Source: Armatimonadota bacterium
Lineage (GTDB): Bacteria; Armatimonadota; Hebobacteria; GCA-020354555; CP070648
Length of the DNA stretch: 37,384 nt
Assembly: GCA_035527535.1 (NCBI GenBank)
Contig: DATLAK010000065.1
Coordinates: 1 to 37,384 of the forward strand
Direction of reading: 5' to 3'
A program made the position numbers and the translations under genes. Shown here piece after piece: positions 16,562 through 37,198 of this stretch (positions within the stretch are counted from its first letter, which is position 1; the number at the start of each line of letters is the position of its first letter). A model generated the notes under the pieces. That model did no database searches. It saw only the letters and a program-made list of their open reading frames with translations, and was not told the origin of the DNA.

Positions 16562-17074
16562 GGTCGTTCCTCTTGAAAAGCCGCGGTCTTGCCCGTGCTG
16601 GCGGCAAGGCGGTGGCGAGTGGTCTTTTCCCCCGCAACGGAAACATGCTATCATAATGCGTCACCGTTGACAAGGCAGACCTGGCGCTAACGGTTACCCA
16701 GTTTTCGATCAGGCCGCAGCGAGATTCTTCACTTCGCGCGGCCGCGCGACTCGCGCGAGCACGCTCCGTTCAGAATGACACCACCAGACCGTTGTCACTC
16801 TGAGCGGCTAGGCCCGGAGGGCCGCCACGGCGGCCGCTCCGCGACCTAGCCGCGTTAGCGAAGAGTCTCGCCTGCGCAATAGCGCAAAGTGGGTAACTGT
16901 CAGAGACCTGGCGGGCGGGTGGAAACGGACAGGTTGATTGTTACCCCCTGGGAGAGACGTTGCGGGCCACCCGACGCAGACCAACGAAATTCGGTCATAC
17001 CACGGCCGGCCGTGAGCGGCCGGCCCTGGGGCCGGAGCCGAGGGACCGCCACGGCCGTAACGAGAGATAATAAG
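16562..17074. other. 513-base divergent intergenic region, rpmB / CBS-DUF1385
   Basis: No gene is seen. It contains a TATGAT hexamer (16650-16655, minus strand) suitable for rpmB but without a well-spaced -35, a GTCATTC-type repeat remnant (16726-16779), and a cloverleaf repeat (16806-16851). There is also a long imperfect inverted repeat, GGGTAACTGTC with GACAG and GTTACCC (16891-16946), and a 9-base perfect hairpin GGCCGGCCG/CGGCCGGCC (17004-17025) just before the CBS-DUF1385 gene. Confidence 0.5.
16806..16851. repeat. cloverleaf palindromic repeat, copy A
   Basis: 46 bases. The outer stem is GGCTAGG/CCTAGCC, extended by C-G. The arms are CCC-GGA-GGG, CCGCC-AC-GGCGG and CGC-TCC-GCG. It shares the stem and central arm with the copies at 26049, 26844 and 34223. 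Confidence 0.75.
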
Positions 17075-25976: not shown

Positions 25977-26048
25977 GCGACCCCTCCTGCGGGTGAGAGT
26001 TCTGCCCGTGCCGATCGCCGGCCTTCGTCGTCGGTGACCAACTTGAGT

Positions 26049-26097
26049 GGCTAGGGCCGACGAATCGGCCCGCCACGGCGGCCCGACGGGCCTAGCC
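26049..26097. repeat. cloverleaf palindromic repeat, copy B
   Basis: 49 bases. Outer stem GGCTAGG/CCTAGCC; arms GCCGA-CGAA-TCGGC, CCGCC-AC-GGCGG and CCC-GAC-GGG. It is nearly identical to copy C at 26844, 750 bases away, on the other side of the lipoprotein gene and in the same orientation. Confidence 0.8.
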
Positions 26098-26216
26098 GCC
26101 GCACGGAGATCATTCCGATTCCCTCGCTGGCGCTCGGGGTGAAAGTCCCCAACGGCAAGGGAGGGCGTGTGCGCGCGTCGAAGAAGACGGTCGGAACCGG
26201 TACGGGGAGGTGCCGC

Positions 26217-26840: not shown

Positions 26841-26843
26841 GGT

Positions 26844-26892
26844 GGCTAGGGCCGACGAATCGGCCCGCCATGGCGGCCCTTCGGGCCTAGCC
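26844..26892. repeat. cloverleaf palindromic repeat, copy C
   Basis: 49 bases, or 53 with the extra GT/AC pairing (26842-26894). Outer stem GGCTAGG/CCTAGCC; arms GCCGA-CGAA-TCGGC, CCGCC-AT-GGCGG and CCC-TTC-GGG. It begins three bases after the lipoprotein stop codon. Confidence 0.8.
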
Positions 26893-27027
26893 ACTGCAGG
26901 TGGATGCGTGCGCGATCATGCAGCTCCTCCGGTCGCGGCGCAACCCGCCGGTCGAGTGGCGGTGAGGTATTGGCGCTGCTCGGTTGGTGGGTGGGCGGGC
27001 GCGCCAATCCCGGGCCGGATTCCGGCC

Positions 27028-28993: not shown

Positions 28994-30982
28994 ATGAGAT
29001 CTCAAAACGCGATCAACATGAGGAGACGAATCTCACATATCCTCGTTTGCTTCACCACCCTCATGGTCCTCCTCGCTATCCTCTCCAGCGCCACCGTCGC
29101 TGTAGCGGTGCCTCTGAAGATCGAGGCCGGTCCGGACAAGACCATCGCCCCCGGCGGTTCGTGCATCCTGGAAGGGTCGGCGACGGGTGGGACGCCTCCG
29201 TACACTTACTCCTGGACACCGACGACGGGGCTGAACAACCCCAACATAGCGCAGCCGACGGCCTCGCCGACGGTCACAACGACCTACACGTTGTCCGTGC
29301 GGGATTCAGTGGGGGTGGATACCAGAACAGATACCGTGACGGTGACGGTGACTGTGCGAGCGGACGCCGGCCCGGACAAGACCATTGCCTCGGGCGGCTC
29401 ATGCGTCCTGGAAGGGTCGGCGGCGGGTGGGACGCCTCCGTACACTTACTCTTGGACGCCGACGACGGGGCTGAGCAATCCTAACATCGCCCAGCCGACG
29501 GCTTCGCCCGCCGCCACCACGACTTATACTCTGACGGTGACCGACAGTCTGTCCCAGGTCAGCACCGATACCGTTCTGGTGACGGTGGCTTCGGCGGTGG
29601 TGGCGAACGCCGGCCCGGACAAGACCATCGCCTCCGGCGGCTCGGCGACCCTGGAGGGATCGGCCTCGGGCGGGGTAGGGCCTTACACCTATTCCTGGAC
29701 GCCGACGACGGGGCTGAGCGATCCCAACATCGCCCAGCCGACGGCCTCGCCGACGGTGACTACGACCTATACCCTGACGGTGACCGACGACCTGGGGCAG
29801 ACCGCGGACGGCAGCATGACGGTGACGGTGGCCTCGGCGGTGGTGGCGAACGCCGGCCCGGACAAGACCATCGCCTCCGGCCGCTGGACGGCTCTGGAAG
29901 GATGGGCCTCGGGCGGCTTGGCGCCTTACACCTATTCCTGGACGCCGACGACGGGGCTGAGCAATCCCAACATCGCCCAGCCGACGGCTTCACCGACGGT
30001 GACCACGGCCTATACCCTGACGGTGCGCGATAGCCTGTTGCAGGTGAGCACTGACACAACCGTGGTGACGGTCGACCGGCCGCCGACTGCGGCCTTCAGC
30101 TATGCGCCCTCCAGCCCAACCACAGCGGACACAGTCGCCTTCGCCGACGGCTCGAGCGATGCGGATGGCACGATTGTCGCCTGGGCATGGGATTTCGGCG
30201 ACGGCGCGACCTCCAGCGAGCGGAACCCAGCACACCGCTACGCTGAGGCCGGTGACTACGAGGTGCGCCTCAGCGTCACCGATGACGACGGAGCCAGAGG
30301 CTCGCATTCTGCCTTGCTGCATGTCGGTGTGGAACTCCACGGGGGGGTTCCGGGGGGCGAGCCACTAGCGCTGGCATACACGGGTAGCAGGATGGTGGCT
30401 GCGGGCTGCACCCTCGGGCTCTCCGCATCAGCCGCTAGCGAGTTTGGCGAGGACGTGACCTCGCAACTGCGGGAAATGCTGTCATTCTGCGTCTTGGACG
30501 CGCAGAACCGTGTCGGTCCGCAGCCTGAAGTCGTTTGGAGTGGCGGATCGATCTCGCCCCGAGTCGAGGCGACGCTTTCGCCGGGGATATATCGAATCTT
30601 CGTCTGGTTTCCCGGAAATGACCGCTTCGGACCGGCCGGCATCGGACCTGAACTGGCCGTGGTCGTTCCGCCGGGGGCAGAGGCGGCATGGGGAAGCATG
30701 GACGCCGGCAACAAGCAGTTCGCTCTGCTTGTGTCATCAGACGCGGACGGGATGCCTTCGCTTCAGCAATTCGTCTACTACGACGCCGAAACCAGAAACG
30801 AAGTGACGAGCACCTCGCTGGATTCGGTCACTTGCAGTGGTGGCGCCTGGCAGGCAAGTGGCCACTGCGCGGCGGACGGGGTGTACGAACACCAGTTCCA
30901 CGTCGACTTGACGCAAGTGCAGGGGCAATGGACGTTCGCGCTCGAGGTATCTAACGGGCTGTTGGTTCAGGGGACACGGTAG
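28994..30982 (+). CDS. secreted surface protein with four Ig-like repeats and a PKD domain
   Basis: 662 residues. The ATG at 28994 is preceded by a G-rich site; ATG 28961 is an alternative. A signal peptide or anchor occupies about residues 13-38. Four near-identical repeats of 80-81 residues follow, each with AGPDKTIA..G, PYTYSWTPTTGL, NPNIAQPTASP and TYTLTV. They begin at bases 29126, 29366, 29609 and 29852. Next is a PKD domain (about 362-447; WDFGDGATSSERNPAHRY, YEVRLSVTDDDGA) and a C-terminal region of about 210 residues that I do not recognise. It is probably an adhesin or surface fibre. It lies opposite in strand to the fliG pieces on both sides. Confidence 0.8.
   Translation: MRSQNAINMRRRISHILVCFTTLMVLLAILSSATVAVAVPLKIEAGPDKTIAPGGSCILEGSATGGTPPYTYSWTPTTGLNNPNIAQPTASPTVTTTYTLSVRDSVGVDTRTDTVTVTVTVRADAGPDKTIASGGSCVLEGSAAGGTPPYTYSWTPTTGLSNPNIAQPTASPAATTTYTLTVTDSLSQVSTDTVLVTVASAVVANAGPDKTIASGGSATLEGSASGGVGPYTYSWTPTTGLSDPNIAQPTASPTVTTTYTLTVTDDLGQTADGSMTVTVASAVVANAGPDKTIASGRWTALEGWASGGLAPYTYSWTPTTGLSNPNIAQPTASPTVTTAYTLTVRDSLLQVSTDTTVVTVDRPPTAAFSYAPSSPTTADTVAFADGSSDADGTIVAWAWDFGDGATSSERNPAHRYAEAGDYEVRLSVTDDDGARGSHSALLHVGVELHGGVPGGEPLALAYTGSRMVAAGCTLGLSASAASEFGEDVTSQLREMLSFCVLDAQNRVGPQPEVVWSGGSISPRVEATLSPGIYRIFVWFPGNDRFGPAGIGPELAVVVPPGAEAAWGSMDAGNKQFALLVSSDADGMPSLQQFVYYDAETRNEVTSTSLDSVTCSGGAWQASGHCAADGVYEHQFHVDLTQVQGQWTFALEVSNGLLVQGTR
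29126..30070 (+). repeat. four coding tandem repeats of 240-243 bases
   Basis: Units start at 29126, 29366, 29609 and 29852 with GCCGGyCCGGACAAGACCAT. Nucleotide identity between units is high, with units 3 and 4 most alike, suggesting recent duplication. The fourth unit is slightly divergent at its start (GRWTALEGWAS). Confidence 0.85.
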
Positions 30983-33862: not shown

Positions 33863-35192
33863 CTATCCCGGCGAGCCCCTCAGAGCGCCGCTCCGCCGCG
33901 CACTCTTGCGTTTGAATCGCAGGTCAATTACGTGCTTGCACCCTCCTTCAACCACCCCCGAACCGATGGGCCAGCCGGCAGCTCGAGACAGGGGATAGCG
34001 CAGTCGCGCCTGAGGGGCCCCCAGGTAGTTAGCCGTTTTGCGCAGCACTTCGTCAGGATCGGCCACCGTGTGCGCCAGCTCGCGCAGCTCTTCCTCCAGT
34101 CCTTCGGAATGCCCGCATCGCAGTTCCCCATTCCAGTGCCCCACCAGCGCCGCCGTCTCCGCCGTGCCTTCCCCATGCACCACCCGCCCCGCCGCCCACA
34201 AATGCTCACATGCGTGATACCAGTGGCTAAGCCCTTCGGGCCGCCATGGCGGTCTTTCAGACCTAGCCATCCAGAATCTGGGTCGGGCGCGATAACATCG
34301 TGGTCGCGGTCTCCCAAATCCACGGCGCGCCATCGGCGACGACCGCCGTCGCCTGGGCCGTGGGTGCGCCGCGGACCAATGCTTCCCGGTACAGTGGTTC
34401 TTCGAACTCCTGCGCTGGCAGCCAATCGGCAATGTAGGTCACCGCTCGTGGTTTGCCCTGTCGCCAGCCCATGAAAGTGGCCACCTTGATCTCGCGCCAC
34501 CCGTCTTCCAGGTGCGTCGTGGTACCGTCAATCTCCGCCACCATACGCCCCTTGACCCGCTGCGCATACGGCTCCGGCGTCAGTTCCGCCGCTCCCCAGC
34601 GCCCCACGATGCGCTGCGCCGCCCGCAGCGACACCTCGATTGCGCATAAGCGGCGCAAGCTGGTGAGCGCCTGGCGGTAAGGCAGCGCCGCTGCCTGCTG
34701 CGCCACCGCTTCCTCGAGGTGGCGACTGAAGCCATGCTTCCACCCCAGCCACTCGTCCGCGGGAAAACTGCGGGCCCCACATCCCTGACACCGCAGGTAC
34801 TGCCGCACCACCCGCACCGGCCCCAAGCGGGTGAGTACGGTGCGCGAGCGCTGGCTGTGGGCGTGGCGACGATTGCCGCACTCACATTGGCGCTCGGCTT
34901 GCGCCTGCGCCGTCTCTGCCCGTACCTGTAACCCCGCCTGCAATACCCGCTGGCCTAGTTTGCGGCTCCATGCCAGCGCCATTTGTTCCGCCGCTTCCCC
35001 ACTGGCGGCGGTCATCACCTGCGCCCATAACGCTTGAACTTCCCCTGCCACCGACCGTGCCAACTGCGCCACCCGCGGCAGCCCGGCTGCGTTTAGTGCT
35101 ATCACAAGGCCGCTATCCTTCCCGCCGAGCTTCGGCCCGGCTGCGATTTGGTCATCCACGGAAGGATAGCACTTTTTTCTCCCCATCCCCAC
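33863..35192 (-). pseudogene. ISKra4-type transposase disrupted by a cloverleaf repeat
   Basis: The N-terminal 309-residue frame (35192 to 34263) has a zinc-ribbon-like CECGNRRH...CQGCGARSF segment, VRVVRQYLRC, and AEIDGTTTHLE; it ends at VVADGAPWIWETA...TQILDG-stop. The C-terminal frame resumes HWYHACEHLWAAGR, then AAGWPIGSGVVEGGCKH. Intact relatives read ILD(W/F)YHA-x-EHLW here. Deleting the 46 bases at 34223-34268 joins LD to WYHACEH in frame, giving about 427 residues. The C-terminus after SARRSG looks short. I could not identify terminal inverted repeats. Confidence 0.85.
34223..34268. mobile_element. cloverleaf palindromic repeat, copy D, inserted in transposase
   Basis: 46 bases: GT, then outer stem GGCTAAG/CCTAGCC, with arms CCC-TTC-GGG, CCGCC-AT-GGCGG and TCT-TTC-AGA. 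It is in the opposite orientation to copies B and C. It interrupts codons GAT|TGG of the transposase and brings in an in-frame stop (TAG at 34263-34265 on the minus strand). No target duplication longer than about one base is visible. Confidence 0.85.
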
Positions 35193-35266: not shown

Positions 35267-35343
35267 TGCGGGGTGGAGCAGTCAGGAAGCTCGTCGGGCT
35301 CATAACCCGAAGGTCGCTGGTTCGAATCCAGCCCCCGCTACCA
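35267..35343 (+). tRNA. initiator tRNA-fMet (CAT)
   Basis: 77 bases including an encoded CCA. Acceptor stem GCGGGG/CCCCGC at positions 2-7/66-71; D stem GAGC/GCTC with the A11-U24 pair; anticodon stem TCGGG/CCCGA with three G-C pairs; loop CTCATAA with anticodon at 35301-35303; T arm GCTGG-TTCGAAT-CCAGC. The three G-C pairs and the unpaired 1-72 position mark it as the initiator. Position 1-72 is U-U here rather than the usual C-A. The 3' half is overlapped on the other strand by the recombinase gene. Confidence 0.95.
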
Positions 35344-37198
35344 TCCCGATTGCATCGCCCGTCTCGCGAGAGGCGGGCGATGCCTTTCTGGCCGCCAGCG
35401 GCGGGCCGGCGAACAGGTGCATCCAGACGTCGCCGGTGTCGGGGTCAAGCTCGATGCGCTTGACGAACAGCCGGGCGAAAGCGCGCTTCTCCTCGTTCGT
35501 GCCTTCCGCGAAGACCTCGGCAAAGGCCTGGCGGCATTCCTCGACGTGGGTCATGTCGAACTCCGGCACCTCTGGCTCGGCTCCGACCGTCGCCTGGCGG
35601 GCGAGTAGCCCCTCGCGCTCGGCCCGGAGACGCCGCAGCTCCTCGTTCGCCCACGCAACGTCATCCAGGCCCTTCCTGATGGCCTCCCGGATGTTGGTGG
35701 TCTCCTGCTCGATGCTGGCCAACTGGCGTGCGATCTCGACTGACTCCGCCGCCTCCTGCTGGCGCACGCCGCGCAGGCCCTGGTTCATGGCCTCCATCAG
35801 CCGCTTGGTATCGGCCCAGGACTCGAAGAGCAGCCCGACCTCCTCGACCACCGCGTCCTCAATCGCCTCCTTGCGCACCTGCAGCGCCGGCCCGCAGCCC
35901 AGGCCGCGGCGGTAACGGTACGCGCCGCAAACGTAGTAGAGCCGCCCCTGGTTGCGGTATCCCACCAGGTTGGCTCCACAGCGCTTGCACACCAGCAGCC
36001 CTCCCGTCAGCAGGTACCGGCTGCCGTCGGTGCGCACCGTGGCCATGCGTCCTTTGGAACGGTCCGACCCGATGCGCCTCATGTCCTCGTTGACCTGCAT
36101 GATGGCCTCGGCCTCTTCGAGGGTGATGACGGCGGGGTGCGCGTTCTCGACGATTTCCCATTCGGAGGGGGGCCGGTGGCTCCCGCGCTTGCCGTGGACG
36201 TTCCAGACCGCGTAGCCCGCATATTGCAGCAGCGCCGATGGCTCCAGCAGGCCGTGCCAGGTGCTGACCGCCCAGTAGCGCTTGCGCGGCGACGGCACCT
36301 CGTGCCGGTTGAGGAAGTCGCAAATGTGATCGAGCGATGCCCGCTGCTGCAGCCGAAGCTCGACCAGCGCGTGGCGTGCCCACTCCCACACCGGGCGTCC
36401 CGAGACGATGGTGTCGTCTTTCTCCCAGAGCGTCTTCATGATGGGCGCGCCCCGGCGGTCGCTGCCGCGCTGCACCTTGTACGCCTTGAAGCCCCACAGC
36501 GGCGCGCCGCCGTTCTTGTAGCAGAACCCAATCTCCGAGTCACGCCGCCCGGCGTTCTCGCGCATGCCCTTGCGGGTGTGGAAGGCCACGTCGAGCGAGT
36601 AGGAGGCGTTCTTGAACTCGGTCATCTTTTCCAGCGCCAGCCCGGCTACCGTGCGCGGATCGAAATCCGGCTCGGTCACCGAGACCACGCGCACGCCGTG
36701 GGTGAGCAGTCTTCCCTTGACCATAGGCCCGGCATAGGGATCGCGGAAGAACCGGGAATGGTCGTGCACGAGGATGGCGGTGACCTTGGGGTCGCGCCGG
36801 GCATGCTCGACCATGCGCCAGAAGACGGAGCGGCGGCTCTCGTCCGAGAAGGCGCTCTCGGCCTCCTGGTATGTCTCGACGATGGAGAGGCCCTTTTGCC
36901 GGGCGTAATCGCGCATGGCCCGGATCTGGGCAGGAATGGACAGGCCGGCGCGCTCCTGGTCATCGGTGGAAACCCTGGCGTATGCCAGGCATCGCACCTC
37001 AACCGGCGCCTCGTCCGCGTGCTCCTGCACAACGCCCGAAATGATGTCGCTCAGCTTCATGCCCTCATCCTCCTTGCGCCTCCCCGGAAAGCGCCACGCG
37101 CCCAGGCCACCGCCTTGATGGCTTGGGTAGGGGAGGAATCGCGCTCGCCGCTCGGCGCGCCCACCAGAAGCCTCAACCAGGTTCTGTGTAGCACTCAT
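35300..37198 (-). CDS. large serine recombinase (integrase)
   Basis: 632 residues from ATG 37198, which overlaps the upstream stop as ATGA and has a perfect AAGGAGGTG site; ATG 37060 (586 residues, GGAGG upstream) is a good alternative, since third-position GC is lower in the first 46 codons. The resolvase domain has YARVSTDDQE with catalytic Ser77 (Ser31 from the shorter start). A Recombinase domain (WGFKAYKV to PHAVI region) follows, then a zinc ribbon CKRCGANL...YYVCGAYR, and a coiled coil rich in Glu/Arg. The C-terminus GAGFEPATFGL is translated from the complement of the tRNA, and the TGA stop overlaps the anticodon. Confidence 0.92.
   Translation of the reverse strand: MSATQNLVEASGGRAERRARFLPYPSHQGGGLGAWRFPGRRKEDEGMKLSDIISGVVQEHADEAPVEVRCLAYARVSTDDQERAGLSIPAQIRAMRDYARQKGLSIVETYQEAESAFSDESRRSVFWRMVEHARRDPKVTAILVHDHSRFFRDPYAGPMVKGRLLTHGVRVVSVTEPDFDPRTVAGLALEKMTEFKNASYSLDVAFHTRKGMRENAGRRDSEIGFCYKNGGAPLWGFKAYKVQRGSDRRGAPIMKTLWEKDDTIVSGRPVWEWARHALVELRLQQRASLDHICDFLNRHEVPSPRKRYWAVSTWHGLLEPSALLQYAGYAVWNVHGKRGSHRPPSEWEIVENAHPAVITLEEAEAIMQVNEDMRRIGSDRSKGRMATVRTDGSRYLLTGGLLVCKRCGANLVGYRNQGRLYYVCGAYRYRRGLGCGPALQVRKEAIEDAVVEEVGLLFESWADTKRLMEAMNQGLRGVRQQEAAESVEIARQLASIEQETTNIREAIRKGLDDVAWANEELRRLRAEREGLLARQATVGAEPEVPEFDMTHVEECRQAFAEVFAEGTNEEKRAFARLFVKRIELDPDTGDVWMHLFAGPPLAARKASPASRETGDAIGMVAGAGFEPATFGL

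Follow-up and report, generated by a model that had tools for sequence, protein, structure and literature searches.

Results

The interrupted transposase gene

The window, i.e., the whole stretch of 37,384 nucleotides of contig DATLAK010000065.1 (assembly GCA_035527535.1, Armatimonadota) that was analysed, carries an ISKra4-type transposase gene that is split in two by a 46-bp insert, which shifts its reading frame (Table 1). In an NCBIfam search the gene is cut between positions 288 and 289 of the NF033572 profile, which is continuous across the insert, and 15 uninterrupted relatives from other genomes of the phylum, none of which has the 46 bases, align with both parts with zero gap and no residue between them. 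The initial annotation had proposed that a repeat cleanly interrupts this gene and that intact relatives be aligned across the junction; the insertion is hereby confirmed. Compared with the relatives, the C-terminus lacks approximately 30 residues, so this copy is probably decayed anyway, be it from before or after the insertion. No second copy of the transposase was found in its own genome, and a Pfam search with the transposase fragment gave no match, whereas NCBIfam did.

The window also contains a tRNA gene directly followed by a large serine recombinase gene (35267-37198; the recombinase at 35300-37198 on the minus strand), an arrangement that resembles one end of an integrated element, and four tandem 240-bp repeats (29095-30043; 72-89% identity) within an open frame with PKD domains. 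Searching the window with Rfam 15 returned only the tRNA, and no known structured RNA family matches the insert.

Table 1. Positions of the transposase parts and of the repeat copies in the window
Feature	Position	Strand	Evidence
ISKra4-type transposase, part before the insertion	34270-35192	-	NF033572 positions 21-288; relatives
ISKra4-type transposase, part after the insertion	33863-34223	-	NF033572 positions 289-401; C-terminus shorter than in relatives
Double-hairpin mobile element, 46 bp, in the transposase gene	34224-34269		Model R1 61.4 bits, E 8e-12; ends from family covariation and empty sites
Hairpin 1: T-GGC-TAA-[GCCCTTCGGGC]-C-GCC-A	34224-34246		Sequence; pair counts
Hairpin 2 (inverted unit): T-GGC-G-[GTCTTTCAGAC]-CTA-GCC-A	34247-34269		Sequence; pair counts
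Second copy, within a CATTCTGAG...GCGAAGAGTCTCGC repeat	16805-16852		Model E 4e-9; flanks
Third copy, between open reading frames	26048-26098		Model E 2e-11
Fourth copy, 795 bp from the third, left hairpin arm common to both	26843-26893		Model E 3e-11

Copies in the genome

The three other places in the window at which the repeat had been noted were all recovered (model E-values of 4e-9 or better). In the whole genome the strict pattern GGCTAR..CGCCRYGGCG..YTAGCC gave 60 matches, counted per strand, and the reversed control gave 0; the pattern is near-palindromic and the number of separate sites behind the 60 matches depends on double counting. We read 50 distinct sites with their flanks, and the genome-wide search suggested at the outset revealed a family of elements without coding capacity, which measure 42-59 bp where read with flanks. 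Given the 15 relatives that lack the insert and the 60 matches against none in the reversed control, there is practically no room for the 46 bases being an old in-gene segment of the transposase or a chance palindrome. Several copies in genome G000 (L103:984, L103:2295, L096:1007, L091:3093, L069 and L080) lie within other dispersed repeats, of the CATCTGCGTAATCTGCGG, AATCTGTGC and CATTCCGAGCGCAGCGAGGAATC families.

Ends and fold of the element

Aligned flanks reveal that the bases just outside GGCTA and TAGCC vary with the two bases at the centre: where the centre is GT the end bases are C and A, where it is AC they are T and G, and where it is AT they are T and A. The end base is complementary to the centre base at 97 of 100 ends in the own genome and at 50 of 50 in relatives (Fisher 2e-24). 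The end bases complement the centre as if each half folded alone, and the element, as read from its sequences, is therefore two complete hairpins in inverted tandem that abut directly and leave no base over on either side, having the formula Y-GGC-TAR-arm-C-GCC-R followed by Y-GGC-G-arm-YTA-GCC-R. In each hairpin a bulge places TAR against C, and the conserved motif CTAR sits within the outer stem. Although the arms differ greatly from copy to copy in both sequence and length, they pair almost perfectly (mean outer arm stem 4.2 bp compared to 0.5 in shuffles). The insert had been placed at 34223-34268; its sequence and length were as described, but the covarying end bases and the empty sites (see below) put the true ends one base rightward.

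The shape had initially been described as a cloverleaf, and homodimeric copies do permit such pairing, of GGCTA...TAGCC and of CGCC..GGCG. On an alignment of 26 elements, in which four heterodimer rows were picked by a finder requiring paired feet and so favour the double hairpin, and the remaining rows by a pattern that if anything favours the cloverleaf (the end/centre rule already emerges from these rows by themselves), 99.7% of cells pair in the double hairpin and 10 of its 14 pairs show two-sided changes; in the cloverleaf 91.2% of cells pair and 4 of 17 pairs show such changes, all four in arms common to both folds. For the outer stems the figures are 100% of cells paired with compensatory, i.e., two-sided, changes in six of eight pairs in the double hairpin, and 83.5% paired (failing in 16.5% of cells) with zero two-sided changes in the cloverleaf; in the commonest element type the latter would be closed by a C.A mismatch at its outermost pair. 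Moreover, in the four heterodimers, which join a half with a YGGC/GCCR foot to one with a YCCC/GGGR foot (L081:898, L082:3696, L160:1383 and L027:62), each hairpin can form and the cloverleaf cannot. Pair counts and heterodimers contradict the cloverleaf, which we consider very improbable.

Insertion mode and target

Paralogous empty sites in the own genome define the junctions: the site of the copy at L080 is present uninterrupted in L158, L160 and L170, which read TCTCGCTGCGG^CCTGATCG and are gapless at the junction, and that at L069 in three ungapped copies (L154-L156). Excising exactly Y...R restores tandem repeats at L095 and L096 (at the latter a AATCTGTGC tandem repeat), and CGAGCGCAG^CGAGGAATC at L091:3093. 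The family has inserted independently many times, and some copies are nested in others (L110 and L114 in G005, L072 in the own genome). Five elements of G005 that were compared are absent in G009, with spacers too rearranged for exact junctions. The G005 loci L104-L119 also comprise composite arrays of double hairpins that lie within one another and within GTAGGGCGGG...CCCGCC repeats; the larger of these composites look as if they were amplified as a block.

No target duplication was detected at 46 of 50 sites, where random pairing predicts 46.8. A purine occupies position -1 in 96 of 100 half-sites and position -2 in 77 of 100; the target is therefore RR^YY, and judged from these sites and the empty ones insertion is seamless. 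What had been said of a discrete, non-coding unit that inserts cleanly and with little or no target duplication held up against the profile, the 15 relatives and the empty sites. The level of duplication and the empty sites are not those of a MITE of a DDE transposon, which would leave a target-site duplication. Nor was a 2-bp core common to both junctions, as in IS110 or serine-recombinase products, found: at many sites the RY dinucleotide of one junction is not that of the other, as at 34224-34269 with GT on the left and AT on the right. No preference for hairpin loops was seen in 47 target sites relative to shifted controls, and a guide-like role of the centre dinucleotide in selecting the target base was rejected, there being no correlation (p 0.32 and 0.29).

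Distribution across genomes

A covariance model built on the double hairpin was searched in 101 genomes of the phylum, the counts per genome being lower bounds. It matches nine of the 101, all of the own class (families f1, f3 and f4), with no match in f2 (G002, G004) nor outside the class among these genomes. Scanning 84,980 species with the strict pattern gave only Candidatus Hebobacteria MAGs, Armatimonadetes S016_27, and CSMAG_1093 and CSMAG_728, both labelled Bacillota; in what was searched the family is hence restricted to one class of Armatimonadota, Ca. Hebobacteria, described in PMC10290634. Matching element positions assign the CSMAG contigs to the class genomes G013 and G011 (public contigs DAOVEW01 and JAUVSA01), so that their Bacillota labels look wrong. 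The family could not be matched to any named family, and a search of open-licence papers found nothing of the kind described for Armatimonadota.

The viral contig IMGVR_UViG_3300035099_000273 (IMG/VR) has a 48-bp copy (L218:546-593) in frame and without a stop inside the open frame 335-826. A phage thus probably carries the element, which may link it to a host of this class.

Candidate mobilising enzymes

The element has no coding capacity, and we infer, as did the initial annotation, that something must act on it in trans. Most genomes of the class encode HUH Y1 genes, element carriers and non-carriers alike, and the presence of a Y1 transposase was rejected as an explanation of the distribution of the element. 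No Y1/RAYT gene was found in the carriers G008 and G011, both of which are incomplete genomes. RAYT genes above the curated cut-off (NF047646) are encoded in G000, G005 and G013, and these have GTAG-REP hairpins upstream, in G000 GTAG-GGGCCGATCTCCTGATCGGCCC twice, which makes GTAG-REP hairpins probably their natural substrate. The RAYT loci L143, L132 and L129, with canonical GTAG-REP hairpins directly upstream, represent ordinary REPtrons in Armatimonadota. No strict double-hairpin unit was present beside the Y1 genes examined, and no enzyme was found beside any element copy examined. TnpAREP proteins require GTAG and cleave at CT (PMC8266576). The mobiliser may be a RAYT serving both kinds of hairpin, one of the other Y1 enzymes (in the own genome, C61 or C175) or a different enzyme.

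Discussion

We favour, with a probability of roughly 0.6, that the insert in the transposase gene represents a copy of a non-autonomous mobile element, built as an inverted tandem pair of short hairpins, that is moved in trans as single-stranded DNA, most likely by an HUH/Y1 enzyme. The element would be excised or copied as single-stranded DNA with cuts exactly at the feet of the two hairpins, and a trans-acting enzyme, most likely from the HUH/Y1 (IS200/IS605-RAYT) superfamily, would then join it to a new R^Y site. It works like a REPIN. This choice rests on the seamless insertion, the ends at hairpin feet and the likeness to REPINs, all in keeping with single-stranded HUH transposition, and carrier genomes do have RAYT-type HUH genes; against it stand the Y1 genes examined, which lack a family unit beside them and also occur in non-carriers, the GTAG-REPs upstream of the RAYT genes, the incomplete carriers G008 and G011, in which no Y1 gene was seen, and the missing GTAG. 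More tentatively, the family could represent miniature mobile DNA of a separate class, with ends set by structure alone: an enzyme that is not a RAYT would cut exactly where two abutting hairpins have their feet, and the terminal bases and even the foot stems would be free to change provided that pairing with the centre is kept.

In REPINs an inverted REP doublet, and not a single hairpin, is the mobile unit and a RAYT the transposase (PMC3116915). The element shares with them an inverted pair of short hairpins as the mobile unit, a non-autonomous and non-coding nature and the occurrence mainly as doublets, with 64 distinct exact inverted hairpin pairs among the loci read in addition to the pair counts. 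The element differs in having no spacer between the hairpins, its ends being the hairpin feet, and in having hypervariable arms and fixed feet; furthermore, GTAG does not stand at the 5' foot of each hairpin (the base outside is only R^Y, with CTAR within the stem), and the element was not found beside a RAYT, the Y1 genes examined including no cognate RAYT flanked by the same hairpins and those of G000, G005 and G013 having GTAG-REPs instead. Because both the tag and the flanked RAYT are missing, the element is a REPIN-like variant and not a REPIN. That its copies are after all REP doublets mobilised by the RAYT of the genome appears unlikely, since the foot without GTAG, the conserved CTAR inside the outer stem and the classical GTAG-REPs upstream of the RAYT genes weigh against it, even if a doublet of imperfect hairpins, bulged in each, in genomes that encode RAYTs above the cut-off is what it predicts.

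We deem it equally doubtful that the family spreads with no dedicated transposase, via RNA or template-switching or a structure-specific nuclease plus repair, as discussed for organellar hairpin repeats. Boundaries that coincide with the hairpin feet, the lack of target duplication and the lack of an enzyme beside the copies examined would all fit, but the RR^YY preference and the confinement to one class suggest a specific enzyme. Fungal mitochondrial double-hairpin elements, as cited from Paquin et al. 2000 in PMC10085805 and PMC2800124, are likewise two short tandem GC-rich hairpins dispersed as a unit within and between genes; they are organellar, and we liken them by architecture only and claim no homology. 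The yeast GC clusters, a related kind, have AG or ACT direct repeats (PMC4478555).

Compared with the GTAG-/CGTC-tagged REPs (PMC3733652; for TnpAREP biochemistry PMC8266576), the element is similar in that these are 20-40 bp imperfect hairpins with a stem bulge and many copies per genome, and different in having CTAR in the outer stem and R^Y junctions versus the CT cleavage sites of TnpAREP (PMC8266576).

The favoured reading, a hairpin pair moved in trans as single-stranded DNA, concerns a process, the movement of very small non-coding repeats in bacteria, that is largely unknown. Small dispersed repeats of cyanobacteria, a different phylum, were reportedly described by Elhai and co-workers in 2008 as very small, mobile, cleanly inserting and hairpin-forming, and would resemble the element in these respects. 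The present family provides unusually sharp evidence, with exact ends, exact empty sites, the RR^YY rule and covariation that reveals the recognised structure, so that the mechanism could be probed with short oligonucleotides and the Y1 proteins that carriers encode. Finally, it demonstrates that a REPIN-like architecture need not include the GTAG tag and can occur beside normal GTAG-REPs in the same genomes.
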